The notes under the pieces: model-generated
Databases searched by the model: none
What the model was told of the DNA's origin: nothing
The model's input: the letters and a program-made list of their open reading frames with translations, nothing else
Translations under genes and position numbers: made by a program
Assembly (NCBI GenBank): GCA_903932705.1
Contig: CAIZHC010000102.1
Coordinates: 1-6,867, forward strand
Length of the DNA: 6,867 bases
From: an uncultured Actinomycetes bacterium
GTDB lineage: Bacteria > Actinomycetota > Actinomycetes > Nanopelagicales > Nanopelagicaceae
Direction: 5' to 3'
In this document: piece by piece, positions 1-6,830 of the stretch
How positions within the stretch are numbered: the first letter of the stretch is position 1
How the letters are laid out: each line of letters starts with the position of its first letter

Positions 1-296
1 CCGTTGGTGCTGATGCTCATGCCGTGTTGGCAGAAGCTGTTAGAGCAGGCGTCTGGGTTTTTGGTGGAGGTTTTGAAGGTTACTCACCTCGAGTGGTCAC
101 TTCAGAGAACAAAGTGAGTGAGGGTCCTTTGATCGCTACTAATGCTCACATCGGTGGTTTTGCAATTATCGATGTAGAGAATGGCGAGCAGGCGAATTAC
201 TGGGCAGCCAAGATTGCGAAGTCATGCCGCTGTTCGCAAGAGGTCCGAAAAATCATGGACGACCCAATACAGGATTCACTCTTACAAGGTAATTAA
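1..296 (+). CDS. YCII/DGPF-domain protein, 3' end only (5' partial)
   Basis: The reading frame is open from the left edge (first full codon at position 3) to a TAA at 294-296, so the true start lies outside the window. The GTG at 24 is probably an internal valine: the frame upstream of it is open and no Shine-Dalgarno sequence precedes it. The visible part resembles the YCII-related (DGPF) family, a small ferredoxin-like fold. It has the features expected there: AVRAGVWVFGGGFE, then a V-x-x-x-x-x-K-V-S-E-G-P segment in the place of the 'DGPF' turn, then HIGGFAIIDVENGEQANYWAAKIA, and a C-terminal strand around VRKIMDD. Members are 90-150 residues long and mostly of unknown function; some are fused to or encoded beside ECF sigma factors. 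No catalytic role can be assigned. The last four bases overlap the end of the convergent transporter gene. Confidence 0.8.
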   Translation, partial: VGADAHAVLAEAVRAGVWVFGGGFEGYSPRVVTSENKVSEGPLIATNAHIGGFAIIDVENGEQANYWAAKIAKSCRCSQEVRKIMDDPIQDSLLQGN

Positions 297-2662
297 TGAC
301 TCTGCTGGGTTCCCTCAGGTGAATCGTGATAAACCACTTCATACCTCGGATTCATGATTGTCAGTTTGCCATCCTCTTCACCGACCATTCCCTCGGCCTT
401 AATGACAGAACCAACTTTGATTCCAGCAAGTGATTTACGTCCGAAGAATTGCAAAGTGATTCCACCAGTCTCATCCCAAATCTCAAGATCAACAGTTGGT
501 TTATCTTGGTGTGAAGATGTAATGGAAACTACTTGTCCCATAACGTGAGAACGCTGGCGCCAAATAACTTCACCAATCTTTCTAAGGTTGGGTTCAAAGT
601 GGGTGAATGGGAAATCTTGCAGAACAACTTTTGTTGCTTGCTTAACGGGCGCAGGGGCACTGGGCACTTCCGTCGAGGGTATTGATACCTCAGAAGACTT
701 TTCAACTTCTCCAGAGAGCAAGCTCGCTACATCGAAAGGCACAATGGTTGCGATAACACCTTTTAATAGAGTAATCGAAGATGCAATCTGCTCTGCGGTC
801 TGATCATGCAAGATGCGACCTAAGAATTGGGTGTAGATGCGGCGAGGCAATAGGAGGGTGAGTTCTACACCGACCTCAGAAGTGCATCGGCGTGCGTATT
901 GCACCACCGCTCTGGAGATTCTGCGATCTGGGCAATCAATCAACTTAAGCGGAATATCTGCAAGTTGAGCAGTTGCCGCCCACTTACGTTGAATCACCTC
1001 TGCCCTTTGGTCATCGAGAACAAAGTGCACAGCCTCCAAACTGCGAGGCGCTAGAGAGAGCGCATATTTTACGGCTCCCACCACTGCCAAATCCACTGAA
1101 TCAATAAGAAGGGCGACATCATGCTTTGAGTAAGTCGAAGACTTTGCTTTAGCATCGATGAGGTTGAGAACTTCCTCCTCCCGGCGATATTGATTTGCTA
1201 GGCGGAACATAAAGTAAACAAGCGCTGGTCCAACTACGACAATCAACCAAGCACCTTCCGTGAACTTCACCGTGGCAAAGATGATGACAACCAAAAGCGA
1301 CGTCACTGAAGCGAGCAAGCTAACAATCGCTTTCGCCCTCCACAACTTGCCCTTGAATTTACGAGCATTTACAAACATGCCAAAACCGGTAATTGAAAAT
1401 GCGGTGAAAACTCCCAGCGCATACAAGGCAACGAGTTTGTTGACTGAACCGTTGGTAAAGATGATGAGAGATATTGCGAAGAGCGAACAGGCGATGATTC
1501 CATTTGAATAAACCAGTTTGTGGCCACGGGAAGCAAACTGACGTGGCAGGAAGCCATCTTCAGAAATATTGGCGGCCAAGATTGGGAAGGCGTTGTAAAC
1601 GGTATTAGCTCCGGCAATCAAGATAAGCATGGTTGAGAATTGTGTAAACCCAAACCAGAGATGACCGAAGATCCCATTGCCAAGAATTGTCTTTGCAATC
1701 ACTGAGATAACCGAAGGGGTACCAGAGGTGTATGGAACTACCTGCAAATGGGAGGCGAACCAGGAAACACCAAATACTAGGGTGCCAAGTAAGCCACTCA
1801 TTAGGTTCATTGTGATTCTGGCATTTCGACCTTCAGGTGACTTAAATAGCGAGACACCATTGGAAATTGCTTCCAGGCCAGTAAGAGATGAACCGCCGTT
1901 TGCAAATGCTCGAAGCAGAATGAAGACCGAAGCAACAGTGAGTAAGCCAGAGTGGTGACCAAGAGACATAGTGCCAGATGGATCAGCAACATGATGTAGG
2001 TGACCGAAGAGCTCTTGCCAAATTCCAAGTGCAAAGACAACAAACATGCTCACAACAAAGAGATAAGTCGGAAGGGCGAAGGATCGACCAGCCTCCTTAA
2101 CGCCTCGGAGATTTCCATATGTTAAGAAGAGGATCACACCGATAGTCATCAAGTTTGTATAGGGAGTTAAGGATGGCCAGAAGGAGGCAACCGCCACAAT
2201 TCCAGCTGCGCTTTGGATTGCGATAGTCACTATGTAATCCAAGATCAGAGCTACCGCCGCCACGATTGACCAGAATCTTCCGAGGTTCTCGCGAGCCACG
2301 ATGTATGCGCCACCGGAAGAGGTGTATTTGGCGATGACGTTGTTATAGGAAAGTGTGAGCAGAACCAAGATGGTGAGAATCACCAGCGTCATTGGAAGTA
2401 ATACGCCAAAGGCGGCTAGCCCCATAAAAGGTACTAGGGCAATCAGAATCTGCTCACTTCCATAAGCCGATGAGGAGATGCAGTCACTAGAAAGAATGCC
2501 AAGGGCATAACGCTTGGCAAGGCGTTGGTGACTTAATTCGTGTCTATTGAGTGGAAGTCCAAGAAGCTTCTTCTTTACACGATAAGAGAAACTATCTTTT
2601 CCTTCTGGTAGTTCTAAAAGTGCAGTTGGAGCGCTTGCATCATCTAACCAAGTTTTGCTCAC
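293..2662 (-). CDS. KimA-like K+ symporter (APC superfamily) with C-terminal OB-fold domain
   Basis: This is a predicted inner-membrane, probably proton-coupled potassium importer of 789 residues. Residues ~50-490 form a 12-helix APC permease. From memory, the K+/H+ site residues of Bacillus subtilis KimA are D36, Y43, D117, T121, T230, E233 and Y377. Each has a counterpart here at matching local spacing: D60 and Y67 (SSDCISSSAYG), D142 and T146 (LDYIVT), T261 and E264 (LTGLEAISNG), and Y414 (VALYALGVF). Residues ~508-645 are a soluble USP-like regulatory domain, as in KimA. A low-complexity Ser/Pro/Glu linker (~651-685) leads to a roughly 100-residue OB-fold-like domain (~690-785, ending TIMNPRYEVVYH) that KimA, at about 607 residues, lacks. 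The start is GTG at 2662, inside a GTGA overlap with the regulator gene, so translation is probably coupled. The stop is shared with the convergent gene. An amino-acid permease is the alternative, but the site residues argue for potassium. Confidence 0.88.
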   Translation of the reverse strand: MSKTWLDDASAPTALLELPEGKDSFSYRVKKKLLGLPLNRHELSHQRLAKRYALGILSSDCISSSAYGSEQILIALVPFMGLAAFGVLLPMTLVILTILVLLTLSYNNVIAKYTSSGGAYIVARENLGRFWSIVAAVALILDYIVTIAIQSAAGIVAVASFWPSLTPYTNLMTIGVILFLTYGNLRGVKEAGRSFALPTYLFVVSMFVVFALGIWQELFGHLHHVADPSGTMSLGHHSGLLTVASVFILLRAFANGGSSLTGLEAISNGVSLFKSPEGRNARITMNLMSGLLGTLVFGVSWFASHLQVVPYTSGTPSVISVIAKTILGNGIFGHLWFGFTQFSTMLILIAGANTVYNAFPILAANISEDGFLPRQFASRGHKLVYSNGIIACSLFAISLIIFTNGSVNKLVALYALGVFTAFSITGFGMFVNARKFKGKLWRAKAIVSLLASVTSLLVVIIFATVKFTEGAWLIVVVGPALVYFMFRLANQYRREEEVLNLIDAKAKSSTYSKHDVALLIDSVDLAVVGAVKYALSLAPRSLEAVHFVLDDQRAEVIQRKWAATAQLADIPLKLIDCPDRRISRAVVQYARRCTSEVGVELTLLLPRRIYTQFLGRILHDQTAEQIASSITLLKGVIATIVPFDVASLLSGEVEKSSEVSIPSTEVPSAPAPVKQATKVVLQDFPFTHFEPNLRKIGEVIWRQRSHVMGQVVSITSSHQDKPTVDLEIWDETGGITLQFFGRKSLAGIKVGSVIKAEGMVGEEDGKLTIMNPRYEVVYHDSPEGTQQSH

Positions 2663-3411
2663 TTTGCGACCGACTTGCGAGTTGCCATTGCTCTGTAACC
2701 TGCCCCTGCTTCTGTTATTAGTAGAACTGGACGTTTTGGAGTTGCTTCTAACTTCTTTCGAAGCTGGCTGAGATATAGACGCAAGTAATTTGTTTCACTC
2801 ATGTACTTATCCCCCCAGACTTCCTTCAGTACCTGTTGCTGAGAGACGAGTCCGCCTTCAGCCCGAACGAGAACTTCTAGAATCTTCCACTCGATTGGAG
2901 TCAGGTGGATATGGACACTTTGATTGTCTGAATCAGAGACCGCTCGCTTTGAGAGATCCACATCCCAATTTCCCAAAACATAGGCCTCAACCACTTTGCC
3001 CCCCGTTTTAGAAGCCAAGTTCTCAATCCTGGCGAGGAGGGCTTGAATTTCGTTCTGTTTGGTAGCCAGCAGTTTTACAAGAGCGGAAACCGTGGTGCTT
3101 GCGAGGACATAAACAACTAGGGTAGTAACTCCATTTTTCTCAGATACTCGGAATGAGTGAAAGGGCCTAGTGAGGTAGAAGTTGAGGTAGAGATCGCTCT
3201 CTATAGAGAGAAGGATTGCTACCCAAATGCCTGAGCCAAGTGAGTAGAAAACAGTGACTACAAGCAAAATCAGAGTACTTGCGGTTAACCCAAGTTTTTG
3301 TAGAAAGAAATGAAGAGCCAAAAGGGTGAGTGGCATTACGCCCAATAAAACTGTTAGTGGAGCGAACCACCTGAGCTTCTCCCAAAACGATTTACTTCCG
3401 ACCGAGGCCAT
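2659..3411 (-). CDS. Membrane-anchored one-component regulator: KdpD-like DUF4118 domain fused to KdpE-like winged helix
   Basis: A 250-residue protein with an unusual domain order. Residues ~14-113 hold four hydrophobic helices (about 16-36, 42-56, 58-70 and 95-113). Between the third and fourth lies NFYLTRPFHSFRVSE, which matches the 'DFFF-x-x-P' loop of the KdpD DUF4118 sensor domain. A short coiled-coil-like stretch (~115-134) and a linker (~135-165) follow. Residues ~166-243 are an OmpR/PhoB-type winged helix closest to KdpE: HLTPIEWKILEVL, QQVLKEVWG, NYLRLYLSQLRKKLE, then LITEAGAGYR. No kinase, phosphoacceptor histidine or receiver domain is present. The simplest reading is a membrane sensor that binds DNA directly, like ToxR or CadC. 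It overlaps the K+ transporter gene by 4 nt (GTGA), which suggests it controls that gene. ATG at 3411 has no Shine-Dalgarno sequence but sits 6 nt after a -10-like TATTTT, consistent with a leaderless mRNA. The ligand is unknown; K+ or turgor is inferred. Confidence 0.88.
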   Translation of the reverse strand: MASVGSKSFWEKLRWFAPLTVLLGVMPLTLLALHFFLQKLGLTASTLILLVVTVFYSLGSGIWVAILLSIESDLYLNFYLTRPFHSFRVSEKNGVTTLVVYVLASTTVSALVKLLATKQNEIQALLARIENLASKTGGKVVEAYVLGNWDVDLSKRAVSDSDNQSVHIHLTPIEWKILEVLVRAEGGLVSQQQVLKEVWGDKYMSETNYLRLYLSQLRKKLEATPKRPVLLITEAGAGYRAMATRKSVAK

Positions 3412-3446
3412 GAGTTAAAAATAGACTTAATTTGGAGCTTTGCACC
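3412..3446 (-). promoter_or_regulatory. Candidate leaderless promoter of the regulator-transporter operon
   Basis: Read on the minus strand, a TATTTT hexamer (3423-3418, fitting TAnnnT) lies 6 nt before the ATG at 3411. Transcription would then begin at or next to the start codon. There is no purine-rich ribosome site before this ATG, which supports a leaderless transcript, common in actinobacteria. A hexamer GGTGCA (3446-3441) sits 17 nt further upstream but matches a -35 consensus poorly, as expected for a promoter that needs an activator. An alternative -10 is the TTAATTTAA stretch near 3457-3449, which would give a short leader without a ribosome site. Confidence 0.45.
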
Positions 3447-3452
3447 TTAAAT

Positions 3453-3487
3453 TAACCTTTCCTAACAATTCCTAACGAATTCCTAAC
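3453..3487 (-). repeat. Phased direct repeats, candidate operator for an OmpR/KdpE-type regulator
   Basis: On the plus strand TTCCTAAC occurs exactly three times, at 3459-3466, 3469-3476 and 3480-3487. A fourth, weaker copy sharing only TAAC lies at 3453-3456. The TAAC cores start at 3453, 3463, 3473 and 3484, spacings of 10, 10 and 11 bp, so all four face the same side of the helix. In the direction of the operon the unit reads GTTAGGAA. OmpR/PhoB-family winged helices bind tandem direct repeats with this spacing. The array fills most of the gap before the regulator gene and ends just upstream of the proposed -35. Autoregulation by the adjacent regulator is inferred; another response regulator could also use the site. 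Confidence 0.6.
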
Positions 3488-3489
3488 AC

Positions 3490-4779
3490 CTATCCCATAT
3501 TTTTCGGGGCGGAGAGCCTGGCGGCGATTAAAGATGCCTGCTTTCGTATTTCCGGAATAGCCGTGCTTTCAAAAGCCTCACCAGATCGCAGCGGACCTAG
3601 CGCATAAATGTTTTGGTGTGAATTGCCATCAGGCTTCATGAGCAACCCAGTCGAAACATCCACATGTAAACCCATTCCTAAAGGTCCGCGTGAAGTTTTT
3701 CCCTCCGCCAATAAATTCAAAGTTAAGGGATCAGACAATTCATAATCTCGACCAATACAGAGAGCTAAGTAATCCCCAGTGAATGTCTCATCGCCTGCAA
3801 GAGTGAGCGCGACTTCGTTCTCTCCAAGGTGGACTTCTAGAACTTTTCCTCCCACAACATGAATTCGGCCCGCCGCAATTTCTGCGTCGACAAGATCTGC
3901 TACTTCTGGTGCGATGCGATGGCGACGTCGAAACCAATTGGAACCATCGGTGCGTAAGAATTCTTCGCGCTCCTCGACGGTAAAGGTGCGCCACATTCCC
4001 TCCATAATTGGCCGCAAACCATCAACCGCTTGGCGCCATGATTCACCAGCCTGCTCCAAATAACTCCGAAGCTTTTCTAACGTGTCAACGTCGGAGAGCG
4101 AGGGAGTAAATGGGGAAATTTGGGACCTCTCATGCCTCTCTGGCAGATTACCGGAACCAGAGATTGCCACTACCGTGTTGTGAGGATCGCGTGCCAAATG
4201 ACTCAGAGCGACATCGATAAATGTGAGCCCGGTTCCAAAGCAAAGGAGTCTTTGCGATTGTGGAAGTGCAATCCCATCCCAAACATCTTTAATGACGAGA
4301 TGAGATTCGGGAACTCCATCTAAAAATTCAGGAGTTCGCGCCTTTCCCAGGCCCATAGCCAGCACAATCCCATCAAAGTTCTCCTCGTCCCCTGATGCAA
4401 ACGTGGCCACCACTCCTTGATCAATTGTTGGCGCTATATGAGTAACAAACTCTCTAACATGTTGAACCTCATCAGGAAGATGTCCGCGTAGATACGTGCT
4501 GTAGGTGCGGCGCTCCATAAAGGAATAGGAAGGCGCCTTCGACCACTCGGCAAAATCATCTGGTAGCTCTTCAACAGCGCTCAATCTTCCAGATGGCACA
4601 TTAAGTCGGTGAAGTTCATCCCGTGTTTGATAGGCCAAGCCTTCGCCGAGCAATTCACGCGGTTCAGCGATTGTGATGTTGGCTGGCGCAATACCGGAGC
4701 GGATCAATGCGATAGCAGTAAGGGTGCCTGACGCACCACCGCCAACAATCAATACCTTCTTACTGGAGTTAATCACCAC
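3490..4779 (-). CDS. FAD/NAD(P)-binding protein (NAD_binding_9-type oxidoreductase)
   Basis: A 429-residue flavoprotein-like protein, predicted cytoplasmic. The N-terminus has a Rossmann dinucleotide-binding motif, VLIVGGGASG (G13, G15, G18), with an acidic residue, E39, at the end of the second strand. The signature of the FAD-NAD(P)-binding family Pfam PF13454 follows: GEGLAYQ and LNVPSGRLS (residues 45-67), then DDFAEW. Further Rossmann elements are IVLAMG (138-143) and CFGTGLTFID (180-189). The C-terminal NIYALGPLRSGEAFESTAIPEIR block is typical of the same family. The substrate is unknown; characterised relatives are few. The start is GTG at 4779, with a second GTG directly after it. An in-frame TGA at 4800-4798, the stop of the exonuclease gene, and the absence of any standard start codon between exclude an upstream start. 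The 18-nt gap to the exonuclease gene suggests co-transcription. No terminator hairpin follows the stop before the repeat array. Confidence 0.85.
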   Translation of the reverse strand: MVINSSKKVLIVGGGASGTLTAIALIRSGIAPANITIAEPRELLGEGLAYQTRDELHRLNVPSGRLSAVEELPDDFAEWSKAPSYSFMERRTYSTYLRGHLPDEVQHVREFVTHIAPTIDQGVVATFASGDEENFDGIVLAMGLGKARTPEFLDGVPESHLVIKDVWDGIALPQSQRLLCFGTGLTFIDVALSHLARDPHNTVVAISGSGNLPERHERSQISPFTPSLSDVDTLEKLRSYLEQAGESWRQAVDGLRPIMEGMWRTFTVEEREEFLRTDGSNWFRRRHRIAPEVADLVDAEIAAGRIHVVGGKVLEVHLGENEVALTLAGDETFTGDYLALCIGRDYELSDPLTLNLLAEGKTSRGPLGMGLHVDVSTGLLMKPDGNSHQNIYALGPLRSGEAFESTAIPEIRKQASLIAARLSAPKNMG

Positions 4780-4797: not shown

Positions 4798-5424
4798 TCA
4801 TTTCTTGCTGATGTTGAGCAATCGCTCAAGGGTAAGTATTTCGCCAGATTTTTCTGCTAATTCATTCTCTATCCGCGTCGCAAGGGCTAGGAAGACTGCC
4901 GCTGTTGTCAACGCATCCCCCAGAGCATGATGTGGCGTATAGACGGGAAGATTTAGTGAGCGCGCCAGAAATTCAAGTGAGGGTTCATGGCCACTCTCCT
5001 TATCTGCAAGGCCAGCGAAACGAGCAAGTGCGGCGGTATCAACCACTCTCTTTGGATATGAATATCCGTGACGCTTCAACGGTTCCGATAGGAAGGCCTT
5101 CTCGACCCAGCTGGCGTGGGCAATTAAGAACTTAGTAGAGAAATAACTAACTAATTCGGGGATGACCGCATCGGCCTCTCTTGCCTTCTCTAAATCAATC
5201 CCGCGCAGACCGTGAACCTGCACTGATGAATGAGAGGGGGATTTTGAGGGCACAATCTCTTCATAGAAATTTCCGATACCTTTAAAACGCCCATCTAAAA
5301 TTCTCACCGCACCCACCGAGACCACTTCATCATTGCGAAGATCTAAACCCGTTGCTTCCACATCTACCGCGCAATACTCATAAGAGCGCCAAGATTTATC
5401 TAGGCGTTCTTTGAAAATACTCAC
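4798..5424 (-). CDS. DnaQ-like (DEDDh) 3'-5' exonuclease
   Basis: A single-domain DEDDh exonuclease, predicted to remove 3' nucleotides from DNA or RNA with two metal ions. I prefer the GTG at 5424 (208 residues): it lies in a GTGA overlap with the upstream stop, and GAGG is 8 nt before it. An ATG at 5442 would add six residues (214) and overlap by 22 nt. Numbered from that ATG, motif I is AVDVEATGL (D27, E29), motif II is IAHASWVEKAFL (H109, E114), and motif III is HHALGD (H171, D176). The aspartate usual in motif II (HNAxFD) is replaced by glutamate at 114. Whether this is a subfamily trait or weakens activity is not clear from the sequence. It could be the replicative epsilon proofreader, but its pairing with a DUF294 protein argues for the less studied CBS/DUF294-linked exonuclease group. 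Confidence 0.88.
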   Translation of the reverse strand: MSIFKERLDKSWRSYEYCAVDVEATGLDLRNDEVVSVGAVRILDGRFKGIGNFYEEIVPSKSPSHSSVQVHGLRGIDLEKAREADAVIPELVSYFSTKFLIAHASWVEKAFLSEPLKRHGYSYPKRVVDTAALARFAGLADKESGHEPSLEFLARSLNLPVYTPHHALGDALTTAAVFLALATRIENELAEKSGEILTLERLLNISKK

Positions 5425-6830
5425 TTCAAACGCCTCGTCCATTCGCCATCAACGGCGCTCTGGATACTGCTGATCGAGCGGAATGATTCACGAAGATGTC
5501 TCCTGGTTAAAGAGTCGAGGGAGTCAGGTGAGATCCAAGTGTTGGGTTTTCGAGCCGCGCGAATATCGGCAATCTCCTCATCAAAAACAAGTTGATGAAT
5601 CTCCGTGAAGGCCCCTATCAGAACATCAGCCTCTTCGCCTTGCAACAATCCACTTTCACTTGCTCTTCGCAAACGATCAATTGTTCCTCCTCGCACATCC
5701 CCTTGGGCTATCGCACACCACCTGGCAAGTGAGGCAATCGGAGCTAAACCACCCTCTTTCAGGTTAAGTCCACCTCTATTTTCTCCACTCTGGTCGACGA
5801 TGAAATCTTTTACAAACCCAATCGGTGGTTTCTTAGCCAGAGCAAAACGGAGCGCTTCCGATAAATATTCATGGCTTCGCGTTGTCTCTCGAATATTCTC
5901 CATAATTGTGCGCCCCAGAGTGATCTGCGTTAATGGCTGATTATCCGCGGCTATGGATGAAAGGAGGAGCGCGCCGGCGCGAGTTGGATCTGTAAGCCAA
6001 GCGCTAGAGACATCAATCCAAGCAGATCTCGATCTACTAAATAAAGTGTTATCCGCATTTGCACCATTGGAGCATTTCTCTAGACCACACTGCTCCATCA
6101 AGGTGAGAATGCGTTTGGCATTCGTTGTGATTTCATCGGTCGCGTCAAGATCACCGTGCTGATCTGCCCAGACAATTGCCGTATCAACATCAGATGCGGG
6201 AAGCGGCTCACCTCTTGCGATAGATCCCAAAATCAACCAGGAATGGGCAACAGGCTGGTCAACCGAACTCGAAAGAGTTAAAACCCTAGTCAAAATTGCA
6301 CTCACTATCGCAGACATCAATCCAGCGACATGAAGCGAAGGAATGCCGTTGTCGTGAAGTTCTACAAGGGATGGTTTAAGAAGTTGAGAAGCGCTGGCTA
6401 GTTCGTCGATACTTTGGGCAGATTCAATCGCAGCTCGAATGAGTAATGGATTGCGAAGCTGAATGGAAGAAAGATCCATCGCGCGAACAACACCGATTGG
6501 TTTCTCGTACTCATCCACCACAACAAGATGATGGACACCGCGCTCAACCATCTGCAGGAAGGCAGATGCCAGAGAAACTTTATTTGAGACAGTAATTAAG
6601 GGGAAACTCATCATCGCGCCAACTGGTGCATCTAACGCGAATTCTCCCCGACCGACCTTGCTTCTAAAATCTCGATCCGTCACCAGTCCGATTCCCATCG
6701 GGGAATCCACGAGCGCAAAAGATTGTTCAGCGCCGGTCATCTTCTCTGCTACCTCACGAATACTTTGAGTTGCCTTCACCCAGAGAATTTCTCTCATATA
6801 GCGAGTTACATTTGATTGCGCATCTGACAT
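5421..6830 (-). CDS. CBS-pair / DUF294 nucleotidyltransferase-like protein
   Basis: A 469-residue soluble protein in three parts. Residues ~12-122 are two CBS motifs (first ending GIGLVTDRDFR, second with HHLVVVDEYEKPIGVVRAMDL), a module that usually binds adenine nucleotides. Residues ~150-300 are the DUF294 nucleotidyltransferase-like domain, with GSIARGE and SDVD (G202, S203, E208, D214, D216), the metal-binding pattern of the Pol-beta-like superfamily. Residues ~330-460 match the DUF294 C-terminal substrate-binding domain (NRGGLNLKEGGLAPI, then the helical end). The N-terminal cyclic-nucleotide-binding domain of longer relatives is absent. Proteins of this class are thought to sense nucleotides or modify a partner, but their targets are not established. 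The gene overlaps the exonuclease gene by 4 nt, so the two products probably act together. ATG at 6830 lacks a ribosome site and the frame stays open to the window edge, so a start further upstream is possible. Confidence 0.85.
   Translation of the reverse strand: MSDAQSNVTRYMREILWVKATQSIREVAEKMTGAEQSFALVDSPMGIGLVTDRDFRSKVGRGEFALDAPVGAMMSFPLITVSNKVSLASAFLQMVERGVHHLVVVDEYEKPIGVVRAMDLSSIQLRNPLLIRAAIESAQSIDELASASQLLKPSLVELHDNGIPSLHVAGLMSAIVSAILTRVLTLSSSVDQPVAHSWLILGSIARGEPLPASDVDTAIVWADQHGDLDATDEITTNAKRILTLMEQCGLEKCSNGANADNTLFSRSRSAWIDVSSAWLTDPTRAGALLLSSIAADNQPLTQITLGRTIMENIRETTRSHEYLSEALRFALAKKPPIGFVKDFIVDQSGENRGGLNLKEGGLAPIASLARWCAIAQGDVRGGTIDRLRRASESGLLQGEEADVLIGAFTEIHQLVFDEEIADIRAARKPNTWISPDSLDSLTRRHLRESFRSISSIQSAVDGEWTRRLK
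5433..5436 (-). promoter_or_regulatory. Shine-Dalgarno site supporting the GTG start at 5424
   Basis: GAGG on the minus strand (5436-5433) is 8 nt before the GTG at 5424, a normal distance, and lies within the last codons of the DUF294 gene. The alternative ATG at 5442 has no comparable purine run in front of it. This site is the main reason for the shorter exonuclease start. Confidence 0.5.

Follow-up and report, generated by a model that had tools for sequence, protein, structure and literature searches.

A KdpD-type membrane domain joined to a KdpE-type winged helix beside a KimA-like gene: a probable one-component descendant of a KdpDE-like system

Membrane transcription regulators are widespread, and a survey of them names a single protein in which the receptor of a kinase is joined to the DNA-binding domain of the partner regulator: Rsp of Neisseria gonorrhoeae (PMC10269533). 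The window analysed here, the whole 6,867-nucleotide stretch of contig CAIZHC010000102.1 from an uncultured member of the Nanopelagicaceae, encodes a protein of similar build (2659..3411, minus strand, 250 residues), hereafter the fusion, in which a DUF4118 membrane domain precedes a winged helix. As in Rsp, where the PilS receptor carries the DNA-binding domain of PilR (PMC10269533), a membrane receptor of the sensor-kinase type is joined at its C-terminal side to a DNA-binding domain of the matching regulator type. The same description sets the two apart: Rsp belongs to the PilS/PilR family, whereas the fusion is of the KdpD/KdpE type. Moreover, Rsp is described as a single chimera repressing pilA (PMC10269533), whereas the fusion belongs to a set of 50 protein clusters and has a KimA-like predicted target and living two-gene relatives. 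An earlier note, made from the letters of the window, knew of no characterised example of the architecture; no DUF4118-winged-helix protein was recognisable in literature titles and abstracts (the supplementary tables of PMC10269533 may include such proteins), but the kind has its published precedent in Rsp. What is new here is the KdpD/KdpE-family case, together with its many members, likely target and surviving relatives.

Like the KdpD/KdpE system, the fusion combines a DUF4118 membrane domain and a KdpE-type winged helix with a potassium uptake gene alongside. In contrast, it has no KdpD, Usp, HisKA, HATPase_c or receiver domain, and a KimA-like gene takes the place of kdpFABC in 5 of 5 loci; membership of KdpDE is ruled out by the missing kinase and receiver domains. 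For KdpD of E. coli, sensing of external potassium is ascribed to the membrane domain or to a site accessible from outside, and sensing of internal potassium to the C-terminal part (PMC8214093, PMC11018627, PMC5936718). ToxR and CadC, to which the earlier note had likened the protein, are likewise one-component regulators of the membrane and have a winged helix of the OmpR type, and a fold match was found. However, they have an N-terminal winged helix, one membrane helix and a C-terminal periplasmic domain, whereas the fusion has four predicted helices first and the winged helix last, so the likeness holds for the kind of protein and fails for the order of its parts; membership of their family is ruled out on this ground. 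RitR of streptococci is another regulator that left the phosphorelay, to judge by the title of its structure entry ('A novel family of redox sensors in the streptococci evolved from two-component response regulators'), but it is a stand-alone response regulator with no membrane sensor joined. The fusion would work like a one-component regulator made of KdpDE-type parts. Two-component systems are regarded as younger than one-component systems (PMC5936718). Here the traffic appears reversed, from two components to one, and each of the two states survives next to a gene of the same transporter family and with the same upstream repeat. We consider it probable, with real room for error, that the fusion is what is left of a KdpDE-like system after its collapse: a transcription factor with four membrane helices, governing its own kimA operon without phosphorylation.

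The evidence favours reading the fusion, as first proposed from the letters, as a one-component regulator in the membrane that lacks a kinase and carries a membrane module of the KdpD type. In the single 250-residue open reading frame (ORF), a Pfam profile scan gave E 2e-13 for DUF4118 and 3e-20 for a winged helix of the KdpE type; at E up to 1 it found neither HisKA nor HATPase_c nor a receiver domain. This upholds both the joining of the two domains in one frame and the absence of kinase and receiver. A hybrid two-component protein was also considered and is ruled out, since the chain has neither kinase nor receiver domain. Four membrane helices are predicted ahead of the C-terminal winged helix, so that membrane region and DNA-binding domain lie in one chain. 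The membrane part (residues 14-116, 3064..3372, on the minus strand like every feature of this gene) shares its ancestry with the N-terminal part of the KimA-linked kinases described below. Between predicted helices 3 and 4 lies a loop (residues 81-91, TRPFHSFRV..., 3139..3171) that aligns with P466-V472 of E. coli KdpD. The linker helix that follows (residues 117-137, 3001..3063) appears to be a relic of receiver helix alpha5, and the winged helix occupies residues 166-242 (2686..2916). The residues P466, T469, L470 and V472 of E. coli KdpD, reportedly those that sense external potassium (Schramke 2016), have these letters in the K-12 protein, and their aligned counterparts in the fusions are P, S/T, F/L and V/I.

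Two database searches for proteins with both Pfam domains and no receiver domain, a search the earlier note had proposed, returned 50 protein clusters (47 of P0001-P0050 plus P0121, P0122 and P0124; P0041, P0042 and P0048 lack a winged-helix match), and KdpE-like regulators with a receiver rank below the fusions. Both halves are under purifying selection. A chance ORF or broken gene is ruled out by the 50 clusters of the same architecture and the low dN/dS. KdpE-type winged helices can bind DNA when paired, which would in principle allow constant binding to the site and a fixed level of expression, with the membrane part as an anchor or dimeriser; we regard this as improbable, because the membrane half is itself constrained (dN/dS 0.016-0.034) and its invariant residues over 36 aligned rows include N77, P83, H85 and R88. 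The spread of the fusion is narrow: the full-length form occurs in 5 of 296 genomes of the window's order, all in its genus (5 of 32). Among the matches listed for samples of the class (394 genomes) and phylum (396), each covering part of its group, the fusion occurs in no genome other than that of the window. These listings used an E cut of 1e-30, scored up to 6 candidates per genome and, for the class, comprise the best-ranked matches. In that genome, 85% complete, the fusion is the single DUF4118 match.

The gene next door, 293..2662 on the minus strand, overlaps the fusion gene by 4 bp and encodes a KimA-like potassium importer of 789 residues, matching the solved importer KimA (6s3k) at 2.1e-89 over residues 27-638. 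The regulator-kimA order is kept in all five fusion loci with DNA examined, in three different gene surroundings. The KimA match links the regulator with potassium on grounds other than the name DUF4118. Judging from this arrangement, the fusion is likely to control its kimA operon, encoding a predicted potassium importer, from the membrane and without a phosphate relay. In Bacillus, a c-di-AMP riboswitch precedes the KimA gene. None was found ahead of kimA here (the lone Rfam match in the window, E 0.6 and far under the gathering score, was judged to be chance), so the neighbour shares the sequence match with KimA but differs by the lack of a detected riboswitch and by about 150 extra C-terminal residues with an OB-fold. 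This OB-fold (PF01336, 1.6e-5, just below the Pfam cut-off) lies at residues ~640-789, window 293-745 on the minus strand, and is also present in the KimA-like protein of G030. A KimA match was found in 26 of 26 genomes checked and in 31 of 32 of the window's genus. Each of the five fusion genomes has two KimA copies, one of which adjoins the fusion; no such regulator stood beside the second copy in the 4 loci looked at. The overlap of the two genes and their pairing in 5 of 5 loci would also suit transporter-coupled sensing, in which the KimA-like transporter restrains the fusion and the fusion itself does not read potassium, much as the permease LysP inhibits CadC (PMC5936718). We think this unlikely: the loop aligned with P466-V472 is retained in the fusions, and KimA partners appear to have been swapped between loci (below), which a tight protein contact would resist.

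The collapse of a KdpDE-like system is favoured by the existence of its two-gene counterpart. In 7 of the 296 order genomes (G028, G030, G264, G265, G267, G268, G269), a DUF4118 protein of 475-495 residues is followed by a KdpE-like regulator of 242-257 residues and then by a KimA-like gene (gene starts set mechanically). Pfam matched DUF4118, HisKA and HATPase_c in the kinases scanned (3 of 7) and a receiver and winged helix in the regulator scanned (1 of 7). Two further genomes, G092 and G120, encode a KdpD-like protein of ~840 residues and then a KdpE-like regulator behind genes that resemble kdp genes by eye (checked with Pfam in G092), and G120 carries both this pair and the fusion. Residues 14-118 of the fusion align with residues 14-118 of the G030 kinase (40% identity), and residues 117-243 with residues 117-244 of the G030 regulator (47.7% identity). 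At the junction, residues 115-136 match the KPF motif and helix alpha5 of the regulators' receivers in one register with a mean BLOSUM score of 23.7, against 6.0 for the best of 16 other offsets and -0.5 for the kinase sequence past membrane helix 4. None of 2000 column shuffles scored as high (mean -16.1, sd 7.7), a count that is not a probability because the aligned rows are kin. That the fusion still contains a remnant of a receiver speaks for the two-gene state as the older one. Everything between membrane helix 4 of the kinase and helix 5 of the receiver was likely lost at the fusion's origin, as the alignments suggest, and by coordinate arithmetic a single loss of ~1.4 kb in G030 would yield such a protein.

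Three of the clusters, P0121, P0122 and P0124, all on contigs of 1.1-1.5 kb, have other junctions: their regulator part begins later, and the alpha5 relic is either absent or hard to recognise. Separate fusion events may lie behind this. The winged helices of P0121 and P0122 group with the KimA-linked regulators (90/91). The two other junction forms (P0121/P0122 and P0124) thus give a hint that the collapse happened more than once, and only a hint, since a single clade of all fusions is not rejected by the winged-helix data (p-AU 0.25) or by the DUF4118 data (fusions apart from kinases and KdpDs, p-AU 0.445).

A second element common to both versions lies upstream. Three direct repeats of GTTAGGAA (plus strand TTCCTAAC), in steps of 10 and 11 bp, occupy 3459..3488 on the minus strand, 48-77 bp ahead of the start codon of the fusion gene, and form a candidate operator. 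Direct repeats at 11 bp are the usual site form for PhoB/OmpR-type winged helices. Read by eye, three copies stand upstream of the fusion in G107 and G120 and two in G098 and G105, and two copies, 11 bp apart and with changes, precede the 7 kinase genes. Over 26 whole genomes the pattern GTNAGGAWNNNGTTAGGA gave 10 matches, among them one at the regulator promoter of each of the 5 fusion genomes (three of these promoters are close kin) and one at the kinase promoter of 4 of the 7 two-gene genomes, with 0 matches in 14 control genomes that have neither version. The presence of the pattern at these sites is not independent evidence, because the pattern was written from them; its rarity elsewhere is. 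In the window, 1 match was found at up to 2 mismatches, against 0.06 expected.

The protein may act as follows. A fall in external potassium would shift the packing of the four membrane helices, which would thereby sense the ion directly; the shift would travel along the helix running from membrane helix 4 into alpha5, and this helix would pair two fusion molecules. Once paired, the winged helices would bind the repeats at their 11-bp spacing and switch on regulator-kimA; activation is preferred to repression by analogy with KdpE. We hold as evenly balanced the fuller proposition that the whole phosphorelay was shed by stitching helix 4 to the last helix of the receiver, so that one membrane protein would read external potassium and switch a single KimA operon by helix movement, with the old operator kept. 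The locus makes testable whether the KdpD membrane domain can carry a potassium signal alone, with neither kinase nor receiver. Membrane biosensors that need no phosphorelay could be modelled on this natural example, which would also add a further way by which KimA could be controlled.

The phylogenies bear on the origin of the fusion in different ways. The DUF4118 tree (103 columns, 66 rows) places 42 fusions and the 7 KimA-linked kinases together against 17 KdpDs (99/99). Its rows are alignment A1 (the window and 35 of the 47 two-domain matches), three genome loci, P0121, P0122, P0124, the 7 kinases and 17 KdpDs hand-picked from loci, and the tree program cautions that columns are few and branches long. 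The KimA tree (786 columns, 32 rows) unites the 5 fusion-linked KimAs in a clade (100/99); the 20 other KimAs besides the 7 kinase-linked ones were chosen as full-length, with broken or partial copies excluded. The two trees agree within the fusions, with G105 outside G098 and G098 outside the window group. For an origin of the Rsp type, from a kinase and its own partner, the DUF4118 tree joins the receptor half with the KimA-linked kinases, the winged-helix tree cannot place the other half, and the junction and the upstream repeat lean towards such an origin.

Several results weigh against the collapse as proposed. The winged-helix tree (125 columns) does not tell apart a fusion half nearer to the KimA-linked regulators (p-AU 0.317) from one nearer to KdpE (p-AU 0.387); 28 receiver-type matches were used, the final tree keeps 64 of 93 rows (18 regulators and 11 fusions removed as near-copies or long branches), and regulators were labelled KdpE from their sequence and locus, not individually. 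A single clade of fusion-linked KimAs and the 7 kinase-linked KimAs is rejected (p-AU 8.4e-11; adding G102 and G118 gives 8.2e-7). The fusion therefore does not descend plainly from the kinase operons sampled: either kimA was exchanged or the fusion stems from an unsampled operon. The repeat, too, is uneven. A script criterion of 8 of 9 letters recovers it from 7 of the 12 upstream regions, and the remaining 5 were recognised by eye only; the exact pattern GTNAGGAWNNNGTTAGGA is missing at the kinase promoters of G030, G264 and G269; a reversed control pattern gave 2 matches in the 26 genomes; and one stray match (G265:C41:3598-3615), perhaps chance, lies ~170 bp ahead of an alcohol-dehydrogenase-like gene. 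A search of 3350-3700 found neither a sigma-70-type promoter nor a terminator, the missing promoter being the point that counts here, and confidence in the predicted structure of the fusion is moderate.

The KimA incongruence and the unplaced winged helix would be expected if the two halves had been joined by recombination rather than by loss within a kinase-regulator-kimA operon, and had come to be paired with kimA in a separate event. This is the most serious of the alternatives, though still rather doubtful, given that the DUF4118 tree unites the fusions with the KimA-linked kinases, the upstream repeat is common to both versions and the receiver helix is kept in register at the junction. 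Exchange of kimA alone could also account for the incongruence. The KimA found at the housekeeping place groups with the fusion-linked proteins in G102 and G118 and with the kinase-linked proteins in G092, a pattern that points to an exchange of kimA among loci.

Elsewhere in the window, at 4798-6830 on the minus strand, two genes overlap, one for a CBS-DUF294 nucleotidyltransferase and one for a DnaQ-like 3'-5' exonuclease. This pair recurs, together with the next FAD-NAD gene, in G107 and G120.
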